This document shows, piece by piece, positions 887-21,023 of a stretch of DNA of 21,349 nucleotides (position 1 is the first letter of the stretch; every line of letters begins with the position of its first letter). The position numbers and the translations under genes are program-made. The notes under the pieces are model-generated. The model was not told the origin of the DNA and did not search any database. It saw only the letters and a program-made list of their open reading frames with translations. The stretch spans positions 1 through 21,349 of IMG/VR virus record IMGVR_UViG_3300032316_001251, one strand, 5' to 3'. The stretch is from a virus.

Positions 887-1411
887 CTATGCGTGCACAA
901 TCACGATGGGATCGTTGTTGAAGATTCCCTGAAATGTTGTAGCGTCGACAATGCCTGTTGCCTCGAGGTCATTGTCTGTCTGCCATGACGCCACGGCGTC
1001 GATGGTGCCATCGCTGTAGTAGCCATCACGATCATCAGCAGCTGTCGGATAGCCGAGTTCGACAAGTCGACGCTGCAGGTGATGAACGGTTAGGCTCTTG
1101 CGATTGAACTTGTTCTTGACAACGCACTTGTCCAAGTAGACATCATCGCGATCGCCGGTTACCGCATATGGGTATACGACAGGGTCCGTATTAGTTGCCG
1201 CAGTCGACTGAGGCTGCGACTCAGGCTCCGTGGCGTCTGCCTCGAGCTTAGCGTCCTCGGGCTCGCCTGCAACATCAAGAGCTGAGTTGGGGTCCGCAAG
1301 GTACTCGGAGCTTGTGCTTGCCTTGGACTTGGCGCGAGGTTTTGGCTGCCCTACATCAGCTACCTCGACCTCAGCCGCAGCCTCAGTCTGGTCTGTGGTG
1401 TGCTCGTTCAT
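887..1411 (-). CDS. Peptidoglycan-binding-domain protein
   Basis: The 174-residue protein has two parts. Residues 1-85 are acidic, Ala/Glu/Pro/Ser-rich and probably disordered. Residues about 106-165 resemble a PG_binding_1 domain: LTVHHLQRRLVELGY, then a DG-YY-DGTIDAVASWQ segment and a TGIVDATTFQ ending, which is the usual helix-loop-helix pattern. Such domains hold cell-wall enzymes on murein, but no catalytic domain is attached here. There is no signal peptide or membrane segment. The Shine-Dalgarno is weak (GAGAGTGAGC). The gene lies 57 bases after the histone-like gene 1469-1735 and probably shares its promoter at 1779-1784. A virion, lysis or cell-wall-targeting role is possible. The domain call is fairly firm; the role is inference. 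Confidence 0.8.
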   Translation of the reverse strand: MNEHTTDQTEAAAEVEVADVGQPKPRAKSKASTSSEYLADPNSALDVAGEPEDAKLEADATEPESQPQSTAATNTDPVVYPYAVTGDRDDVYLDKCVVKNKFNRKSLTVHHLQRRLVELGYPTAADDRDGYYSDGTIDAVASWQTDNDLEATGIVDATTFQGIFNNDPIVIVHA

Positions 1412-1468: not shown

Positions 1469-1735
1469 CTAGAACCCGAAGTATGCTCGAACTTTGTTCC
1501 AGGTCTGCCGCATGCGCCCAGTGGGCTTGGGCTCGATTGGAGCTGGAGCTGCTGCCTTCTTCGCTGCTGCCTTGCGAGGCGCGGCTGCCTTCTTGGTGGC
1601 GGCTGGCTTCTTAGCTGCTGGTTTCTTTGCCGCGGGCTTCTTAGCTGCTGGCTTGGCTTCTGCTGCCTTCTTGGGAGCTGGCTTCTTGGCGGCCGGCTTC
1701 TTGGCGGCAGGCTTGGATGCCTTAGGGGTTGCCAC
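1469..1735 (-). CDS. Lys/Ala/Pro-repeat histone-H1-like protein
   Basis: This 88-residue protein is almost entirely AAKKP repeats (residues 3-66). An 18-residue basic, aromatic tail follows (TGRMRQTWNKVRAYFGF). The repeat resembles the C-terminal tails of actinobacterial HupB and of eukaryotic H1, which bind DNA through lysine charge; no HU core domain is present. It could compact phage DNA, bind RNA, or coat another polyanion. The C-terminal tail could form an amphipathic helix and so might touch membrane. The Shine-Dalgarno GAGAGGAC lies about nine bases before ATG. It is the first gene of a leftward unit with the peptidoglycan-binding gene. The repetitive codons mean the number of repeats may vary between relatives. 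Confidence 0.85.
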   Translation of the reverse strand: MATPKASKPAAKKPAAKKPAPKKAAEAKPAAKKPAAKKPAAKKPAATKKAAAPRKAAAKKAAAPAPIEPKPTGRMRQTWNKVRAYFGF

Positions 1736-4537: not shown

Positions 4538-4571
4538 TTGGCACCGTCCTTTCGTGGTCGTCGTTAGTACT

Positions 4572-4580
4572 ATTATATCA
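4572..4580 (-). promoter_or_regulatory. Cassette promoter for 3968-4537
   Basis: TGATATAATAGTACTAAC on the minus strand, 34 bases before ATG, with leader ACGAAAGGAC. Full match to the consensus of the window. Confidence 0.9.
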
Positions 4581-5980: not shown

Positions 5981-6325
5981 CTAGCTAACCTCGCCGGTCG
6001 CCGGCTTGCGCGTGCGACCCTTCAACCGCGAGCTGGCATCGCGAATCGGCGTGCCAGACTCGTTGATGAGCTTGCGAGCCTTGCCGTAGGTGACACCAAG
6101 CTCGGATGCAACCTCGACGACTGACTTGCCGGATGTGTAGAGCGCGGCGGCCTGCGAAGCAGACGCCGTAGTGGTGGATGTGGTATCCATGTGCGTATTC
6201 TCCTCGGAGTGTCGTTCTGTTGTTTGTTGTTGTGGTGCTGCTGCCAGCTCAGCTCGAGCTCTAGAGAGAAGCTGGCTAGCCTCGACAAGTAGCTGAGCTC
6301 CTGCCGAAGATTGTGTTGTATTCAT
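5981..6325 (-). CDS. Small HTH DNA-binding protein (paralogue of 14752-15096)
   Basis: This is a 114-residue protein. Residues 8-30 form a leucine-rich helix, then a polar linker, then a helix-turn-helix at about 60-90 (AALYTSGKSVVEVASELGVT, then YGKARKLINESG) followed by IRDASSR and a basic tail. The HTH resembles the resolvase/Hin-type small domain common in actinophage proteins. The protein at 14752-15096 has the same layout and closely similar HTH. ATG at 6325 overlaps the upstream stop (ATGA) and keeps the N-terminal helix that the paralogue also has. However ATG at 6190 has a strong GAGGAG and could give a second, 69-residue HTH-only form. A regulatory role is likely. Confidence 0.85.
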   Translation of the reverse strand: MNTTQSSAGAQLLVEASQLLSRARAELAAAPQQQTTERHSEENTHMDTTSTTTASASQAAALYTSGKSVVEVASELGVTYGKARKLINESGTPIRDASSRLKGRTRKPATGEVS

Positions 6326-8052: not shown

Positions 8053-8625
8053 CTAGTTGGAATACTGCACAACCACGTTATGCGGCGGTGCTGTTCCGTT
8101 GTCAAGTTTGGTCGCGATGCCAAGCGCGTACTTCACCGCGGCCTTGGCCGTATCAACGTCTCGAGTCTCGATCGAGTCTTCGATGAGAGCGTGAAGCGCG
8201 CCCAGCGCGTAGTCTCCGCCTGACCCGCATGCATACATTCCGCTTGCGTCACGCATATAGCTGTAATCCTCGCCAAACTCGTATCCAACGCCGTTGACAC
8301 AGACGAAGATAACAGATCCAAGCTGTCCATCCTTGGCGTACCCGGCTTGCTCGAGGCAGTCCTTGAGCTCGGGCAGAAATACTGCTGAGATGAAGCGATC
8401 CAGCTTTCGACCTGTGAGATCGGCGGGGTCCGGAGGCTCGAAGACGTGCTCGAGTAGATTTACCGCGCGAAGATCGCCGGCCGCGCTCATGATGTACGGG
8501 CCTTTGCGCACGAGCTTGGACTGGTTTGCTGGTAGCGTGAATGTGCGTCCGCGCTCCTCAACAACGCGGGAGTCGACGCCGAAGACTACCCAACCCGATC
8601 CCTGCACAGCCGCCAGCGTTGTCAT
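8053..8625 (-). CDS. HslV/proteasome-beta-like Ntn peptidase
   Basis: This is a 190-residue protein with the hallmarks of the N-terminal-nucleophile protease fold. The start MTTLAAV would expose Thr2 after Met removal. FGVDSR puts Asp18 where the family has Asp17. NQSKLV gives Lys37 for the Lys33 position. MSAAGD is the family glycine turn near 50. CGSGGDYALGAL (133-144) is the Ser129/G-x-G segment. The length fits HslV (about 175) better than actinobacterial PrcB, which has a propeptide; here there is none, so it could be active at once. In hosts, such subunits form rings and need an unfoldase; no HslU-like gene is in this window. Phage roles could be turnover of host or phage proteins. No Shine-Dalgarno is seen; a leaderless mRNA is predicted. 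Confidence 0.85.
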   Translation of the reverse strand: MTTLAAVQGSGWVVFGVDSRVVEERGRTFTLPANQSKLVRKGPYIMSAAGDLRAVNLLEHVFEPPDPADLTGRKLDRFISAVFLPELKDCLEQAGYAKDGQLGSVIFVCVNGVGYEFGEDYSYMRDASGMYACGSGGDYALGALHALIEDSIETRDVDTAKAAVKYALGIATKLDNGTAPPHNVVVQYSN

Positions 8626-8631
8626 GCTGGT

Positions 8632-8637
8632 ATTCTA
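8632..8637 (-). promoter_or_regulatory. -10 (TAGAAT) for a leaderless mRNA of 8053-8625
   Basis: GATAGAAT on the minus strand is followed by six bases and the ATG at 8625, so transcription would start at or next to the ATG. The same arrangement occurs at 19431. No cassette leader is present. Confidence 0.6.
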
Positions 8638-9610: not shown

Positions 9611-9669
9611 TCTCTCCTCTCTGCTGCCTTGGTGGCGTTAGTACTATTATATCAGGCAGAGAGGAGAGA
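9611..9669. repeat. Inverted repeat around the 9646 promoter
   Basis: TCTCTCCTCTCTGC (9611-9624) and GCAGAGAGGAGAGA (9656-9669) are perfect 14-base inverted copies. The right arm lies upstream of the promoter and the left arm covers the Shine-Dalgarno of 9449-9607. A transcript that reads through from 9684 would pair the two arms; one started at 9646 would not contain the right arm. Confidence 0.75.
9646..9654 (-). promoter_or_regulatory. Cassette promoter for the 9607-8654 unit
   Basis: TGATATAATAGTACTAAC, with a leader in which a small hairpin GCC-ACCAA-GGC precedes the AGAGGAGAG Shine-Dalgarno. It lies inside the 9611-9669 inverted repeat. Confidence 0.9.
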
Positions 9670-9995: not shown

Positions 9996-10235
9996 TCAAT
10001 AGTAGTTCGGTGAGTCGGAGAGCAACGGAGGGTAGTCCGTGTGCTCGCCTGGACGCGGAGTGCGCCCTGGCGATGCGACGTCGCGTTCGATAAGCTGCGA
10101 AATGCGCTCAAGGCTTCGTCGCGCGACCTTGTCACTCGGGTTTTGCGATGGGCGTGTCGGATCGAGGCCCGCAACATCGCGTAGAGCACGCAATGCTTCT
10201 TCGAGAGCTGCGGAGATCTCCTGCGCGCTGCTCAC
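9996..10235 (-). CDS. Small hypothetical protein
   Basis: This is a 79-residue protein. The first half is a long helix (AQEISAALEEALRALRDVAG), then a proline-containing linker, a second helix (DKVARRSLERISQLIERDV) and a Pro/Asp/Tyr-rich tail ending DSPNYY. It could be a helical hairpin or coiled-coil adaptor; no family recognised. GTG at 10235 overlaps the upstream TGA (GTGA). It is the second gene of the unit starting at 10563. Confidence 0.8.
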   Translation of the reverse strand: MSSAQEISAALEEALRALRDVAGLDPTRPSQNPSDKVARRSLERISQLIERDVASPGRTPRPGEHTDYPPLLSDSPNYY

Positions 10236-10513
10236 AGCTCTTCCTCCTTCGGAAAGAGCTGGTCGCGCAGGTGAACCTCGTAGTAATCACCGCGCCAGGA
10301 GTTCTCACCGAACTCGATGTTTCCGTTCTCCTGAAGCTGTGCGAGCGAGAGAACAGCTGTGTGCCACTTTTCTTCGAACATGATGACGAGCTTGACGTCG
10401 TCTTCCTCGGGATCTGCGACAACCGCAACCTTGAACGGCGCTCCGCCAATTCCGTTTCGGTGATGAGCAGACTTGAGAATCGACAGCTTGCTGTCGAAGT
10501 CATTCTTCGGCAT
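10232..10513 (-). CDS. Small hypothetical protein
   Basis: This is a 93-residue protein: MPKNDFDSKLSILKSAHHRN, then a beta-rich GAPFKVAVVADPEEDDVKLV and FEEKWHTAVLSLAQLQENGN. It ends with an acidic LFPKEEEL. I do not recognise it. ATG at 10513 is set by GAAAGGGCAG in the cassette leader. It is the first gene of a three-gene unit with 9996-10235 and 9684-9983. Confidence 0.85.
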   Translation of the reverse strand: MPKNDFDSKLSILKSAHHRNGIGGAPFKVAVVADPEEDDVKLVIMFEEKWHTAVLSLAQLQENGNIEFGENSWRGDYYEVHLRDQLFPKEEEL

Positions 10514-12246: not shown

Positions 12247-12504
12247 TCAGGAAGACAGAGCTGGTGTTGCAGTCCAGAGAATCTCGCCGGTCGACGTATC
12301 GACGATGCCGAGGATCATGTTCCGAGTCCACAGCTCGTAGCGCTTGCCGAGCTCGGGATGATTCTGCAACCACCAATAAAGCTCGCCCGCAGTCTTCCCC
12401 GCCTCAGCGAGAACTGCGTATTCCATCGCGTCATTCGTCATTGGATCTCGAGCGTAGTCGCCGCGATCACAGATGAAGAAGACGTAGCTCGTCAGATAAC
12501 TCAT
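12247..12504 (-). CDS. Small hypothetical protein
   Basis: This is an 85-residue protein: MSYLTSYVFFICDRGDYARD, then a helical AMEYAVLAEAGKTAGELYWW and a final strand pair MILGIVDTSTGEILW. The family was not recognised. ATG at 12504 overlaps the upstream TGA (ATGA). It is last of the three-gene unit 13273-12247; no clear terminator follows, and the next promoter lies 28 bases downstream. Confidence 0.8.
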   Translation of the reverse strand: MSYLTSYVFFICDRGDYARDPMTNDAMEYAVLAEAGKTAGELYWWLQNHPELGKRYELWTRNMILGIVDTSTGEILWTATPALSS

Positions 12505-12833
12505 TCCGGGTCCACGATCGATACCGGGACTACGATCTCGGGCGAGACGACCGTGCCATCGGAGGTAATTCGCGAGAATCGACCCATCGGCTTGTCGAGC
12601 GTCACGACGATCTTCGTCCGGCGCATGCCAACAACCGTGCCCGTGCTGCCAACGAGATACTTCGTGCCGCACATTGAGTTGAATCGAACCCGCTGGCCGA
12701 TACCAAAGTCGCCCTTGGTCCGCGTTGTGCGCTTAGCGGTCTGGCGCTTTTTGATCGCCGCAGAGATCTCATCGAGGTTGTTGTCGAGATTGCCGTTCTC
12801 GATATCCTCGAACAATGTCCAGAGATTCGTCAT
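12501..12833 (-). CDS. Conserved phage protein with a KOW/SH3-like segment
   Basis: This is a 110-residue protein. Residues 1-40 form a helical, acidic/basic start (DIENGNLDNNLDEISAAIKKR). Residues about 42-90 read GIGQRVRFNSMCGTKYLVGS, then TGTVVGMRRTKIVVTLDKPM. The order RVRFN, then YLVG, TGTVV, RTKIVV resembles a small beta-barrel (KOW- or SH3-like) seen in several actinophage proteins. Function unknown; RNA or ribosome binding is possible. Start ATG at 12833 overlaps the upstream stop (ATGA). Confidence 0.8.
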   Translation of the reverse strand: MTNLWTLFEDIENGNLDNNLDEISAAIKKRQTAKRTTRTKGDFGIGQRVRFNSMCGTKYLVGSTGTVVGMRRTKIVVTLDKPMGRFSRITSDGTVVSPEIVVPVSIVDPE

Positions 12834-16126: not shown

Positions 16127-16157
16127 TTCCGTGTCCCTTCGTCGTTGGCGTAGTACT

Positions 16158-16166
16158 ATTATATCA
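16158..16166 (-). promoter_or_regulatory. Cassette promoter for 15923-16126
   Basis: TGATATAATAGTACTACGCC, then AACGACGAAGGGACACGG. The TGA is also the stop codon of 16164-16445. Confidence 0.9.
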
Positions 16167-16844: not shown

Positions 16845-18716
16845 CTATGCGGCGCGCCGCGTGCCCGCGTTGGTGAGCTGGCGAGCTGCCGCCGTGCCGA
16901 TCTCGGTCGCGGCCTTCGCCGGATCGAGGTAGCCCGGGATGATCGCCGCGCTTGCCGTGCCGATGATCTCCTTGGCGTAGTAGTCAGAATCGAACGGCAG
17001 CCACAGCACTGCAACGCCCGCGGCGTCGAGCCGCTTCATCCACTTGCTGGCGTTGCGCGTCTCCTGCGGCGTGTAGCACCCGTCGCTCACGATGACGAGC
17101 AGACGCGCACCCGTGCCGTGCAACAAGTTGAGGCCGCCATCCAGCACCTTGAAAGCTTCGTCGAAGCGCTCCGTGCCGTCCGGCGCAGTGTACACGTGCA
17201 CCTCGGACAGATGCTGCCCGGGCTTCAGCGTCGGAAACACGCCGCTGCCGTAGTACACCATCGCCGCGCGCGCCTGGATTCGACGCGCCGCCTCGGACAT
17301 GACCCACGCCGTGACTGCCATCGGCTCCATCGCCGAGCCCATCGACCCTGAGATGTCAACCATCACGCCGATGTTGAGCGTCGGGTCGTCGGTGTGCTTG
17401 CGCGCTGTGCGACGCCAGGGTTCGACCTCTGCGCGGATGCCCTTCGACTTTAGCGCAGCGCCCTGCACCATTGCGCGCGTGCGCAGTCGACCGGGAGGGA
17501 GCACCGAGTGAATCTCGACCTCGTCGCGCTCGCGGTACTTTGCCTTCTCGAGCATCTGCGCAACCTTGACTGCAGCAGCGCGTTCGGGACCGGACGGTGC
17601 ACGGGTCGCGGCAAGCCGTGACTTCGACGTTGTCGACGCGGAAGGGCCGGTGCCCTTCGCGAACGTCCGTGCCGCGGTGTCCTGGTGCTCCTTCATCTCG
17701 CGAGCTGCGGTGCCGCGGTCCTTGACCTCGCGCTCCCATTCCTCTGCAGTCTGCTGATCGGCGATGTCCTCGGCAGACATGATCGCGACCATCTCGCGCA
17801 TGTCCTCGAGCGCGTCGAGCACGTCCTCCATCGAGATGCCAGAGCCAGTGCCCTCGCCCTCACCGGACTCGTCCGTGCCGGAGCCTGAGCTCCCGCCAGC
17901 TTCACCGGACTCGCCGGGCTCACCGTTCTCGTCTGCCTTCGAACCTCCGGGCGTTCCGGACTCGCCGGTCTCCTTGGCGCGCTCCTGAAGAAGCTCGACC
18001 CAGCGGTAGGCGAGGCCGTACATGCTCTCGACGTTGTAGTGATTGGCGTGCGACTGGTACGTGCGCCAAAGCTCGCGCAGGTTGGCGACGAGCTCCGCGC
18101 CAAGGAAGTCGTCGACTACGCGCACGACCTCTTCAACGTCTTCATGCTCGAGGACGCCGGCGTCGATCCGGGCGTGCAGTAAACCTGCGAGGTGCGCCGC
18201 GTTCCAGACGTCGAGCTGAGCGTCGGTGTTCTCGCGAATGTCAGCGAGGACGATGTCGAGCGCGCAGGCGCGCAGGAACGCGCGATTGCTCGGGACCTCG
18301 CGAACGCCCCACGCTTCAATGCGGGACTCCTCGAGCAGCGTCAGCGCCTGGAAGACCTTTCCGGGGAGCTCGGCGATTGCCGTGTCGAGGTTCCAGCGTG
18401 AGTAGCGAGCATGCAGCGCCTCGTGGAAGATGGCGCCGGCTGCACGCGGCCACTCGAACTGAACGTCGCGCTCGCGAAGATCGCCGATGAGCTCGGGCGA
18501 GATGTTGCCGAAGGCGATGTCGACGTTGACCTCGACCTCGGCAAGCTTGGGTGAATAGCATGCGGGCGCTGGTCCGCCGGCGCCAGGTCCGACGTACGCG
18601 ACCAGGTCGCTGCGTCCGGCCCAGGTATTCACCAGGTCGCCGAGCTGAGCGCCTGTCCTCAGCCACTCATGTGGCGTCGCCTCGGCGCGTGTGGAGGAGT
18701 ACTTGATGTGCGCCAT
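16845..18716 (-). CDS. CobT-like VWA protein with metallopeptidase-type N-terminal region
   Basis: This 623-residue protein resembles the CobT/VWA class that works with MoxR-type ATPases. Residues 98-102 are HEALH (HExxH) in an AGAIFHEALHARYSRW context, as in the metallopeptidase-like domains found before some VWA domains. A helical middle runs to about 245. Residues 250-294 form a Gly/Ser/Glu low-complexity linker typical of CobT. The VWA domain lies at about 448-600, with a complete MIDAS start D454-x-S456-x-S458 (DISGSMG) and VIVSDG at 544-546. In known systems the VWA protein presents a target to the ring ATPase, for metal-chelatase or remodelling work. It lies downstream of the AAA+ gene, separated by the GIY-YIG gene, and has its own cassette promoter. 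Confidence 0.9.
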   Translation of the reverse strand: MAHIKYSSTRAEATPHEWLRTGAQLGDLVNTWAGRSDLVAYVGPGAGGPAPACYSPKLAEVEVNVDIAFGNISPELIGDLRERDVQFEWPRAAGAIFHEALHARYSRWNLDTAIAELPGKVFQALTLLEESRIEAWGVREVPSNRAFLRACALDIVLADIRENTDAQLDVWNAAHLAGLLHARIDAGVLEHEDVEEVVRVVDDFLGAELVANLRELWRTYQSHANHYNVESMYGLAYRWVELLQERAKETGESGTPGGSKADENGEPGESGEAGGSSGSGTDESGEGEGTGSGISMEDVLDALEDMREMVAIMSAEDIADQQTAEEWEREVKDRGTAAREMKEHQDTAARTFAKGTGPSASTTSKSRLAATRAPSGPERAAAVKVAQMLEKAKYRERDEVEIHSVLPPGRLRTRAMVQGAALKSKGIRAEVEPWRRTARKHTDDPTLNIGVMVDISGSMGSAMEPMAVTAWVMSEAARRIQARAAMVYYGSGVFPTLKPGQHLSEVHVYTAPDGTERFDEAFKVLDGGLNLLHGTGARLLVIVSDGCYTPQETRNASKWMKRLDAAGVAVLWLPFDSDYYAKEIIGTASAAIIPGYLDPAKAATEIGTAAARQLTNAGTRRAA

Positions 18717-18887: not shown

Positions 18888-19424
18888 TTAATCAGACGAC
18901 TTGCGACGTTTTCTTGCTGCCATTGACATCTTCAGACGGCTCTCTTCACTGAAGACTCTTCCTTTTTGGCTTTCAGATATGCGTCGCTTCGTCTCTTCCG
19001 AATGGCTTCGTCCTTTCCAGACTTCGCCAAGCTTCTTTTTGTGCTCTTCGCTAAAGACTTTTCCTTTATGAGACTTACTAAGCTTTTCCCTGTACTCTGC
19101 TGATCGAACTACACCGATAGAACCTTCTCCTCCATCTGTCATGTTCGTCAGGTCGACCCCTGCCTGCCGTAGCTCTTGAATAAGCTTAGACTCGACTGTT
19201 GCAGATTCCTGCCAGCTTAACTCAGAGACTACAGCAGACGCAACGATTGAATGTCCCGCGTCTTGCACTTCCCGTATCCAGTTATAGACGTGATACGAGC
19301 AACCCTTCTTAGCTTTCCAAAGGTGCTCTTTCAATCTGCTGCTTGGGTCGTCGTGCTTGCTTCGACCGACATAGCGAATGCTCTCTAAGTCAGCCGAAGA
19401 AGCTAGAACGTAGACGCATGCCAT
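18888..19424 (-). CDS. GIY-YIG homing endonuclease with NUMOD3 repeats
   Basis: This is a 178-residue protein. The GIY-YIG catalytic domain is at about 1-100: VYVLAS (residues 4-9) and YVGRS (18-22) stand for the GIY and YIG strands. Glu78 in TVESKLIQEL is the likely metal ligand, followed by L-T-N-M-TDGGEG (92-101). Three NUMOD3-type DNA-binding repeats follow (SKSHKGKVFSEEHKKKL; then WKGRSHSEETKRRI; then SQKGRVFSEESR). It is more AT-rich than its neighbours. It sits between the AAA+ gene and that gene's presumed terminator, so it looks like a free-standing mobile gene. No Shine-Dalgarno is seen; the TAGAAT at 19431 predicts a leaderless mRNA. Confidence 0.92.
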   Translation of the reverse strand: MACVYVLASSADLESIRYVGRSKHDDPSSRLKEHLWKAKKGCSYHVYNWIREVQDAGHSIVASAVVSELSWQESATVESKLIQELRQAGVDLTNMTDGGEGSIGVVRSAEYREKLSKSHKGKVFSEEHKKKLGEVWKGRSHSEETKRRISESQKGRVFSEESRLKMSMAARKRRKSSD

Positions 19425-19453: not shown

Positions 19454-20446
19454 TCAGATCTTTGCCGGCCGGCACTCATCACCGAAGACCCTGGTAAAGA
19501 CGTCGGCGACAACTGGGCGGTCCATCTCTGGAGCGGCGGCCAAGAGATTCGCGATCGCAAACTTCGTGCCGAACATCGTGGACAGATCCCGGAAGGCAAG
19601 AAGCTCGCGCATCTGCGGAGCCCAGCTCACCTCCGAGGACTGCTGCTTCTTGCTCAGGTTCTGCGCCGCGGTCACGATCTGCGTGGGGACGCCGAGTTTA
19701 CGCGCGAGTCCCCAGTCGGTGGTCATCTCAACCTGGATCGTGAAGCGGGAAAGCAGAGCCTCGGACAGTCGAACACCCGGGGCGTTCGGATTGGTGGCGG
19801 CGATGACGTAGAAGCCGTCGACAGCATGAACCGTGCCGCGCTCAGGGTTGGCAGTGACGTTGTACTCACGGCGGCCGTCCATGAGGCCGTACACGATCGA
19901 CAACACCTTGGGGTCGATGAGACCAATCTCATCGATGAGGAAGGGCTTGCCCTCGGAGGCCGCGCGCAGAAGCGGGCCGTCCTCCCAGGCGAAACCGCCG
20001 GAGGGTGTCTGCACGTATCCGCCGACCAGGTCGGCGACCTCGGTGTCGCCGGAGCCGAGCAGCGTGATGACGTTGTCGAAGGCTGCCTCGACCAGTGCGG
20101 TCTTGCCGCAGCCAGGCGCGCCGTACAGCAGCACGAACTGCATGGCCTCGCGCGCCTTGCGCAGAACCTCAACGTCGTCGTGCTCGCCCCACTTGCGAGT
20201 GTAGTATTCGTCGCCGTTCGGGCGAATGTACTTCTCGCTGCCGGTAAGCGCGTCGGCGTTGATCACAGCGGGAGCCTTCTTGGTCGAGGCACGCTTGGTC
20301 ACGCGTCCCTGTGGCTGGATCATCTTATCGAGGTAAGAGTCCAGCGTGGAGTTGGCAGACTGCGTTCCGATCGCCGCGATGACATCGCGAATCTCGAGTG
20401 ATTCATCCTCCATGAGGGAGGAGTAGATCTCGCTGGGAAGAGCCAT
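19454..20446 (-). CDS. MoxR-type AAA+ ATPase
   Basis: This is a 330-residue protein. A helical N-terminal region (1-70) precedes the AAA+ core. Walker A is GAPGCGKT (109-116), Walker B FLIDEIG (169-175), sensor-1 AATNPN (216-221) and the arginine-finger region LLSRFT (231-236), with a helical lid to the end. The DLVGGY segment after Walker A fits the MoxR/CobS class. These ATPases pair with VWA proteins to remodel or insert metal into a target; here the partner is probably 16845-18716. ATG at 20446 is chosen over GTG at 20455 because AAAAGGAC is 11 bases from it and only two bases from the GTG. Confidence 0.92.
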   Translation of the reverse strand: MALPSEIYSSLMEDESLEIRDVIAAIGTQSANSTLDSYLDKMIQPQGRVTKRASTKKAPAVINADALTGSEKYIRPNGDEYYTRKWGEHDDVEVLRKAREAMQFVLLYGAPGCGKTALVEAAFDNVITLLGSGDTEVADLVGGYVQTPSGGFAWEDGPLLRAASEGKPFLIDEIGLIDPKVLSIVYGLMDGRREYNVTANPERGTVHAVDGFYVIAATNPNAPGVRLSEALLSRFTIQVEMTTDWGLARKLGVPTQIVTAAQNLSKKQQSSEVSWAPQMRELLAFRDLSTMFGTKFAIANLLAAAPEMDRPVVADVFTRVFGDECRPAKI

Positions 20447-20493
20447 GTTGATCACGTCCTTTTCGTCGTTGGCTGGTAAGTGGTGCTAGTGCT

Positions 20494-20964: not shown

Positions 20965-21014
20965 GTGCGGTGTCCTTTCGTCGTTTCCCGGGCTCCGTAC
21001 CGGGCGTTAGCACT

Positions 21015-21023
21015 ATTATATCA
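21015..21023 (-). promoter_or_regulatory. Cassette promoter for 20500-20964, leader hairpin
   Basis: TGATATAATAGTGCTAACGCC, a CCCGG / CCGGG hairpin (20987-21004) and AACGACGAAAGGACACC. The TAA stop of 21016-21249 lies in the -10. Confidence 0.9.

Follow-up and report, generated by a model that had tools for sequence, protein, structure and literature searches.

The window analysed here is a stretch of 21,349 nt from a virus (IMG/VR record IMGVR_UViG_3300032316_001251, positions 1 to 21,349). An uninterrupted ORF of 190 aa lies on its minus strand (8625–8053), and the plus strand at 8053–8625 is interrupted by stops and is not an open frame. The initial annotation had read an HslV/proteasome-beta-like peptidase at these coordinates, which are right, and had left the strand unstated. 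The features used below are as follows.

887–1411, minus strand: peptidoglycan-binding protein, located after the terminase in relatives; synteny marker
5981–6325, minus strand: c1, HTH-like protein, conserved downstream of the protease; synteny marker
8053–8625, minus strand: predicted group I proteasome-like (BPH/HslV-like) Ntn peptidase, from an ATG at 8625 to a stop codon at 8053–8055
8632–8637, minus strand: TAGAAT, possible −10 box by sequence, 6 nt 5' of the protease ATG
8635–8637, minus strand: in-frame TAG in the sequence, three codons 5' of the protease ATG
10232–10513, minus strand: c7, small alpha/beta protein of 93 aa (AF2 model); conserved neighbour
12501–12833, minus strand: c9, conserved neighbour of 110 aa, encoded close to the protease across many relatives
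16845–18716, minus strand: VWA/CobT-like protein of a MoxR–VWA pair; conserved synteny, not a specific partner
19454–20455, minus strand: MoxR/AAA_5 ATPase; no other AAA+ protein was found in the window

Elsewhere in the window, a GIY-YIG/NUMOD3 homing endonuclease (18888–19424, minus strand) lies between the MoxR and VWA genes, and an 88-aa protein (1469–1735, minus strand) consists largely of AAKKPAAKK repeats and is histone H1-like, with no PHROG match. A promoter-like motif, (CC)TGATATAATAG(TACTAAC), is present in seventeen minus-strand copies, before many genes (for example at 4569–4579, 9643–9653, 16155–16165 and 21012–21022), and most copies are followed by a leader like AACGACGAAAGGACAC. 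Counting both strands, there are 18 matches vs 0.04 expected by chance. The motif is common to the related loci L013, L014 and L015, and L011, L058, L040 and DSL-LC01 each have a repeated variant of their own.

The residues that had been named for the protein are all present (M1-T2-T3, D18, K37 and G134-S135-G136-G137-D138-Y139-A140-L141-G142). The absence of a propeptide was also read correctly, since the in-frame TAG three codons before the ATG excludes one. If TAGAAT serves as a −10 box, the protease mRNA may be leaderless or nearly so. Comparison with the protease of L014 (77% identity) gave dN = 0.156 and dS = 1.23, a ratio of ~0.13 (NG86), which points to purifying selection on the gene. 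Judged from its sequence, the gene is real and probably encodes an active proteasome-like peptidase.

The AF2 model, computed with a 31-member alignment as input, has a pLDDT of 94.1 and a pTM of 0.88. It contains helices at residues 52–60 and 72–93, a short, near-neutral pore loop at approximately residues 94–104 (AGYAKDGQLGS), and a strand (183–188) as the chain end. A Foldseek search of the PDB returned BPH first (5ovs and 5ovt, E 2.7e-11 to 9.4e-11, TM 0.73–0.80), then HslV, then 20S beta, with E < 1e-9 for both BPH and HslV. In BFVD, the top match (TM 0.93) was a protein named 'HslV' from an uncultured Caudovirales phage. A profile search of PDB sequences also placed BPH first (5ovu, E = 1.4e-10, residues 2–189), with HslV at ~1e-7. 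PHROG phrog_1040, 'peptidase HslV family', matched the window protein (E = 1.2e-19) and 31/31 clade members, and the Pfam Proteasome match (PF00227) was weak for the window protein (13.8 bits vs a cut-off of 22.4) and as good as E = 2.8e-9 for some clade members. PADLOC returned no defence match for the peptidase.

The Ntn, proteasome-beta-like part of the earlier reading is thus borne out by structure prediction, whereas membership in HslV is not: the window protein scored 17.2 vs 157.75 bits and 18.5 vs 137 bits (NCBIfam TIGR03692 and NF003964), and its nearest solved relative is BPH. In a survey by Fuchs, Alva and Lupas (2021, PMC8665760), group I of the proteasome-like proteins comprises HslV, BPH, AAH, CPH, PPH, RPC and DPH. 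The AF2 model and the Foldseek matches have a compact Ntn core collinear with HslV and BPH, and no terminal S12/H5. On sequence and model, the window protein is placed in this group I, with no subfamily assigned.

Residue correspondence was taken from alignments and full-length Foldseek matches. Alignment to BPH and HslV equates T2 with Thr1, D18 with Asp17, K37 with Lys33 and S135 with Ser129; in our own reading of the alignment, following the 20S pattern D-x-x-S, D175 would correspond to Asp166 and T178 to Ser169. The 31-member clade alignment, built from a scan whose pattern included the N-terminal peptide, has invariant columns that include M1, T2, T3, D18, S19, K37, G50, D51, G134, G136, D175, P181 and Q187. 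Because an N-terminal pattern favours MTT starts, the scan was redone with the C-terminal 90 residues only. All 77 untruncated homologues from this second scan begin with (M/V/L)TT, and 72 of the 77 have an in-frame stop at most 12 codons 5' of the start, so the absent propeptide is a family trait and not a matter of start-codon choice. When the window protein is added (78 rows), T2, D18, K37, G50, D51, G134, G136 and D175 are 100% conserved, and the catalytic residues are unchanged across 45–77% identity. The equivalents of Ser129, Asp166 and Ser169 across homologues are Ser/Thr, Asp and Ser/Thr, respectively.

The Ntn active-site layout seen in the initial annotation therefore holds for Thr, Asp and Lys, but one position had been overlooked. 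The equivalent of the oxyanion residue Gly47, which is Gly in 84 of 93 rows, is Ser47 in the window protein and also Ser in L014 and L015. Such a Ser could leave activity reduced or altered; its backbone NH could still serve the oxyanion role. Ser47 weakens the claim to a standard active site and leaves the fold-based placement unaffected.

A different Ntn enzyme, for instance a specific ligase or amidohydrolase of the connectase type, would be compatible with Ser in place of Gly47 in the window lineage, and connectase, a monomeric protein ligase, does belong to the proteasome-like family (PMC8665760). The window protein is, however, compact and collinear over its full length with BPH and HslV, has no active-site insertion, and retains the Ser129, Asp166 and Ser169 equivalents; we regard an activity other than that of a peptidase as improbable. 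An inactive decoy co-assembling with the host proteasome or HslV has behind it only the initial annotation's suggestion of an inhibitor that joins the host proteasome, and no result speaks for it. A decoy would not need the catalytic residues, and their strict conservation over that range of identity, combined with purifying selection, argues against one; identity to 20S beta and HslV (~16–23%) is also low for co-assembly. We give this idea almost no credence.

A megablast search of the window against 50,697 phage records gave no match. By tblastn, the best named relative is Actinomycetia phage DSL-LC01 (WJZ48484.1, 46% identity over 187 residues, E = 1e-50), which is predicted to infect Actinomycetia (PMC10611076); the main text of that report does not mention HslV, protease or proteasome. 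Next are Caudovirales sp. ct2KA10, Moorella phage MTATph1 and Microbacterium phage Pumpernickel, followed by Arthrobacter phages Hum25 and Pitbull, Vibrio and Psychrobacter phages and others, several of these relatives being annotated 'protease' or 'peptidase HslV family'. A scan of IMG/VR with the window protein alone returned 0 matches, because its exact peptides are rare, and an alignment query was used instead. With a five-sequence alignment, at least 555 related stretches were found, redundant contigs included, in a scan that works on short conserved peptides and reaches close relatives only. The corresponding scan of 84,980 cellular genomes gave 1 match, L094. As far as the short-peptide scan reaches, these counts indicate that the clade is almost wholly viral.

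The single cellular match, L094 (JAURLY010000091.1), comes from a gammaproteobacterial MAG. A WhiB-like protein and phage-like genes are encoded on this contig, which is therefore probably of phage origin, either integrated or binned in error.

The initial annotation knew of few phage examples. This is contradicted by the IMG/VR stretches, the GenBank phages, the named PHROG family and the published survey, in which PPH and AAH are noted in phages (PMC8665760). The protein is well supported as a further member of an already described phage family, and not a new kind of system.

In a collection of plasmids, the closest cellular homologues came from rhizobia and Streptomyces. In the tree, the window clade stands apart from the rhizobial, Streptomyces and other phage members (98/98), and the latter clade is probably AAH; the long-branch joins in this tree (BPH with Tunturi_5, Pumpernickel with Hum25) were not relied on.

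Several observations concern other members of the wider family. Three related phages have a second, divergent proteasome-like copy (G002:C1:72808-73326, G003:C1:38720-39190 and G043:C1:5255-5776); those in G002 and G003 retain the catalytic T, D and K, and both have HNH endonuclease-like ORFs nearby. On the Sinorhizobium plasmids L096 and L097, a distant group I gene lies within a nif cluster, in the order nifQ – gene – iron-sulfur assembly protein – nifS, and a distant group I proteasome-like gene is also present on other rhizobial and Paraburkholderia plasmids. Lys/Arg-rich C-terminal tails occur in L002, L087, L090 and L104, and the window protein has no tail. After the conserved terminal Gln, the tail has 34 residues in DSL-LC01 (13 K/R), 39 in L087 (18) and 22 in L090 (11). 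The C-terminal end of a distant Ochrobactrum phage protein is PVKKTPAKKAPAKKG.

The genes around the peptidase recur in the order MoxR – VWA – ... – c9/c7 – peptidase – (WhiB – zinc-ribbon-like protein) – HTH – membrane protein – DUF6011 – SLT or terminase – peptidoglycan-binding – HTH – ... – portal, over flanks of ~10 kb and with some members missing at some loci. This order is kept between contigs that are ~45–50% identical in the protease protein. The peptidase belongs to the conserved gene set of these freshwater phages, a large and mainly uncultured group. WhiB proteins are restricted to Actinobacteriota and their phages (PMC10202952), and the gene content indicates that the clade consists mostly of WhiB-bearing, actinobacteria-infecting phages. 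Clustering recognised no WhiB gene in the 21 kb of the window, for which kinship suggests an actinobacterial host.

The position of the protease gene upstream of the terminase, peptidoglycan-binding and portal genes could be taken to favour a capsid maturation (prohead) protease. In DSL-LC01, however, annotated capsid maturation proteases lie beside the major capsid protein gene, one of them matching Peptidase_S78; a Peptidase_S78 match was found in 8/14 records, and the Ntn gene is ~25 kb from the capsid genes. A head-maturation role was rejected on account of this separate S78-type protease by the capsid gene of DSL-LC01, and we consider its likelihood negligible.

Among the neighbours, c7 stands out, by its adjacency alone, as the leading candidate accessory protein. 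It is found in 9 of the 17 records searched, which make up the window's side of the clade, and in 0 on the DSL-LC01 side. In most c7-bearing loci it ends 3–67 bp before the peptidase start; in the window it lies 1.6 kb upstream of the protease gene with other genes between, as in L014. The AF2 model of c7 (pLDDT 89) gave no PDB fold match below E 0.9, and its sequence gave no Pfam match above cut-off and no PHROG match.

As had been noted in the initial annotation, no typical unfoldase lies beside the protease, and the MoxR-type ATPase, 10.8 kb off, is the sole AAA+ protein in the window; its VWA partner (16845–18716) had gone unmentioned. The search for a partner, extended beyond the window, found AAA_2, the HslU/ClpX domain, in 0/18 whole records, including the complete DSL-LC01 (129 kb) and Pumpernickel (186 kb), using a search whose positive control was found in 14/14 genomes. 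Since IMG/VR records are mostly incomplete genomes, a partner encoded elsewhere may have escaped the search. AAA_5 (MoxR) was found in 15/18 records, and most PF00004 matches fall on that MoxR ORF, with a further, partial match in a long protein.

MoxR–VWA pairs are known mainly as chaperone- or chelatase-type machines. The phage MoxR ATPase and VWA protein might nevertheless form the cognate unfoldase, given that the AAA_5 gene recurs upstream in the same order and encodes the only AAA+ protein in the window. The pair, however, lies 5–12 kb from the protease and never within one operon with it. In Gordonia phage GodonK the pair is present and the whole genome has no match to the 31-member protease profile, in a search lacking a positive control; tblastn likewise gave no peptidase match for the other Gordonia and Microbacterium phages with a related pair, except Pumpernickel. 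Since the pair is found in phages that gave no protease match in these searches, MoxR–VWA is not an obligate partner, and its role as the cognate unfoldase seems very doubtful.

An unfoldase of the host (e.g. ClpX, ClpC1 or Mpa/ARC) could instead feed the peptidase ring, which would redirect host ATP-dependent proteolysis. This would account for phages without ClpX/HslU-type ATPases in which the peptidase is under strong constraint, and AAA+ partners are frequent for proteasome-like rings (PMC5777263, PMC8665760). No docking feature for a host unfoldase was identified, though; even BPH does not retain the HslU interface, and a BPH pull-down failed to bring down HslU (PMC5777263). We hold host feeding to be unlikely, if less so than a role for the MoxR–VWA pair. 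For the new homologues of the 2021 survey, no co-occurring AAA+ was reported (PMC8665760).

We favour, as the likely reading from sequence, model and analogy, a BPH-like, self-assembling Thr peptidase of group I, active after Met removal and without a dedicated unfoldase, in a clade of actinophages. Methionine aminopeptidase readily removes Met where Thr follows. The protease, made without a propeptide as its sequence shows, would have its Met cut before Thr by the host enzyme, freeing the Thr1 amine. Judged by the fold, the subunits would then assemble into a self-compartmentalising ring, with the BPH-type double ring as the likeliest form, and the conserved residues predict that within it Thr1 Ogamma cleaves peptide bonds together with Lys33 and Asp17. 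Polypeptides that are unfolded or loosely folded may get in without any dedicated unfoldase, or occasionally aided by a host chaperone or unfoldase, and the outcome might be a phage-supplied protein-clearance or takeover protease in infection.

A more speculative extension, which we rate as unlikely, is a stand-alone, ATPase-free proteasome-like machine in abundant freshwater actinophages, with c7 and the peptidase as a two-gene module for gating or substrate delivery. The K/R tails of other members would tether the ring to DNA, and the active site of the window lineage would have been retuned by the change from Gly47 to Ser.

Phage proteasome-like proteins had already been listed, but their function and partner are not known. 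The present clade is large, with a strictly conserved active site and a fixed gene order, and it puts the gene in actinophages, where the 2021 survey found no AAH (PMC8665760). What makes it of value is its size, its constant location in actinophage genomes and a candidate accessory gene, c7, which is not mentioned in the cited literature and is testable. For a short, propeptide-free protein with predictable behaviour (Met removal giving an active Thr), activity, ring state and the need for an unfoldase are directly testable.

Among known systems, BPH (PDB 5ovs, 5ovt and 5ovu) is made without a propeptide and binds epoxomicin covalently, and neither a genome search nor a pull-down found a partner unfoldase for it (PMC5777263). 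The window protein resembles BPH in its full-length fold, the lack of a propeptide, Thr/Asp/Lys and the absence of a detected dedicated unfoldase; it differs in being phage-encoded, in its low identity (~18–19%) and in its Ser at the Gly47 position. BPH is a tetradecameric double ring, whereas the window protein is known from its sequence and a monomer model. The pore loop of BPH is long and acidic, and with the short, near-neutral loop of the window protein the entry mechanism may differ. HslV shares the fold, MTT start and GSGG motif, and is set apart by the NCBIfam scores; in contrast to HslV of HslVU, no HslU accompanies the protein in the phages examined (no AAA_2 in 18 records). Unlike the 20S proteasome beta subunit, the protein scores below the PF00227 cut-off and has no propeptide, and unlike Anbu, with its long C-terminal coiled-coil helix, its model has no C-terminal helix.

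AAH and PPH (PMC8665760) share with it the compact group I core, occurrence in phages and the lack of a propeptide. PPH has ~140 aa and no helix 2; the window protein, with 190 aa and helix 2 present, is too long and is not a PPH. Compared with AAH (cluster KEGG OC.661151) by distribution and by tree, the rhizobial and Streptomyces homologues match where AAH occurs, but they branch in a different clade from the window protein (98/98); for AAH itself, the survey could find no Actinobacteria-specific phage carrying it (PMC8665760). The closest named counterpart is the DSL-LC01 protein (WJZ48484.1, phrog_1040), which carries a Lys/Arg-rich tail absent from the window protein and is otherwise a direct homologue in the same gene neighbourhood.
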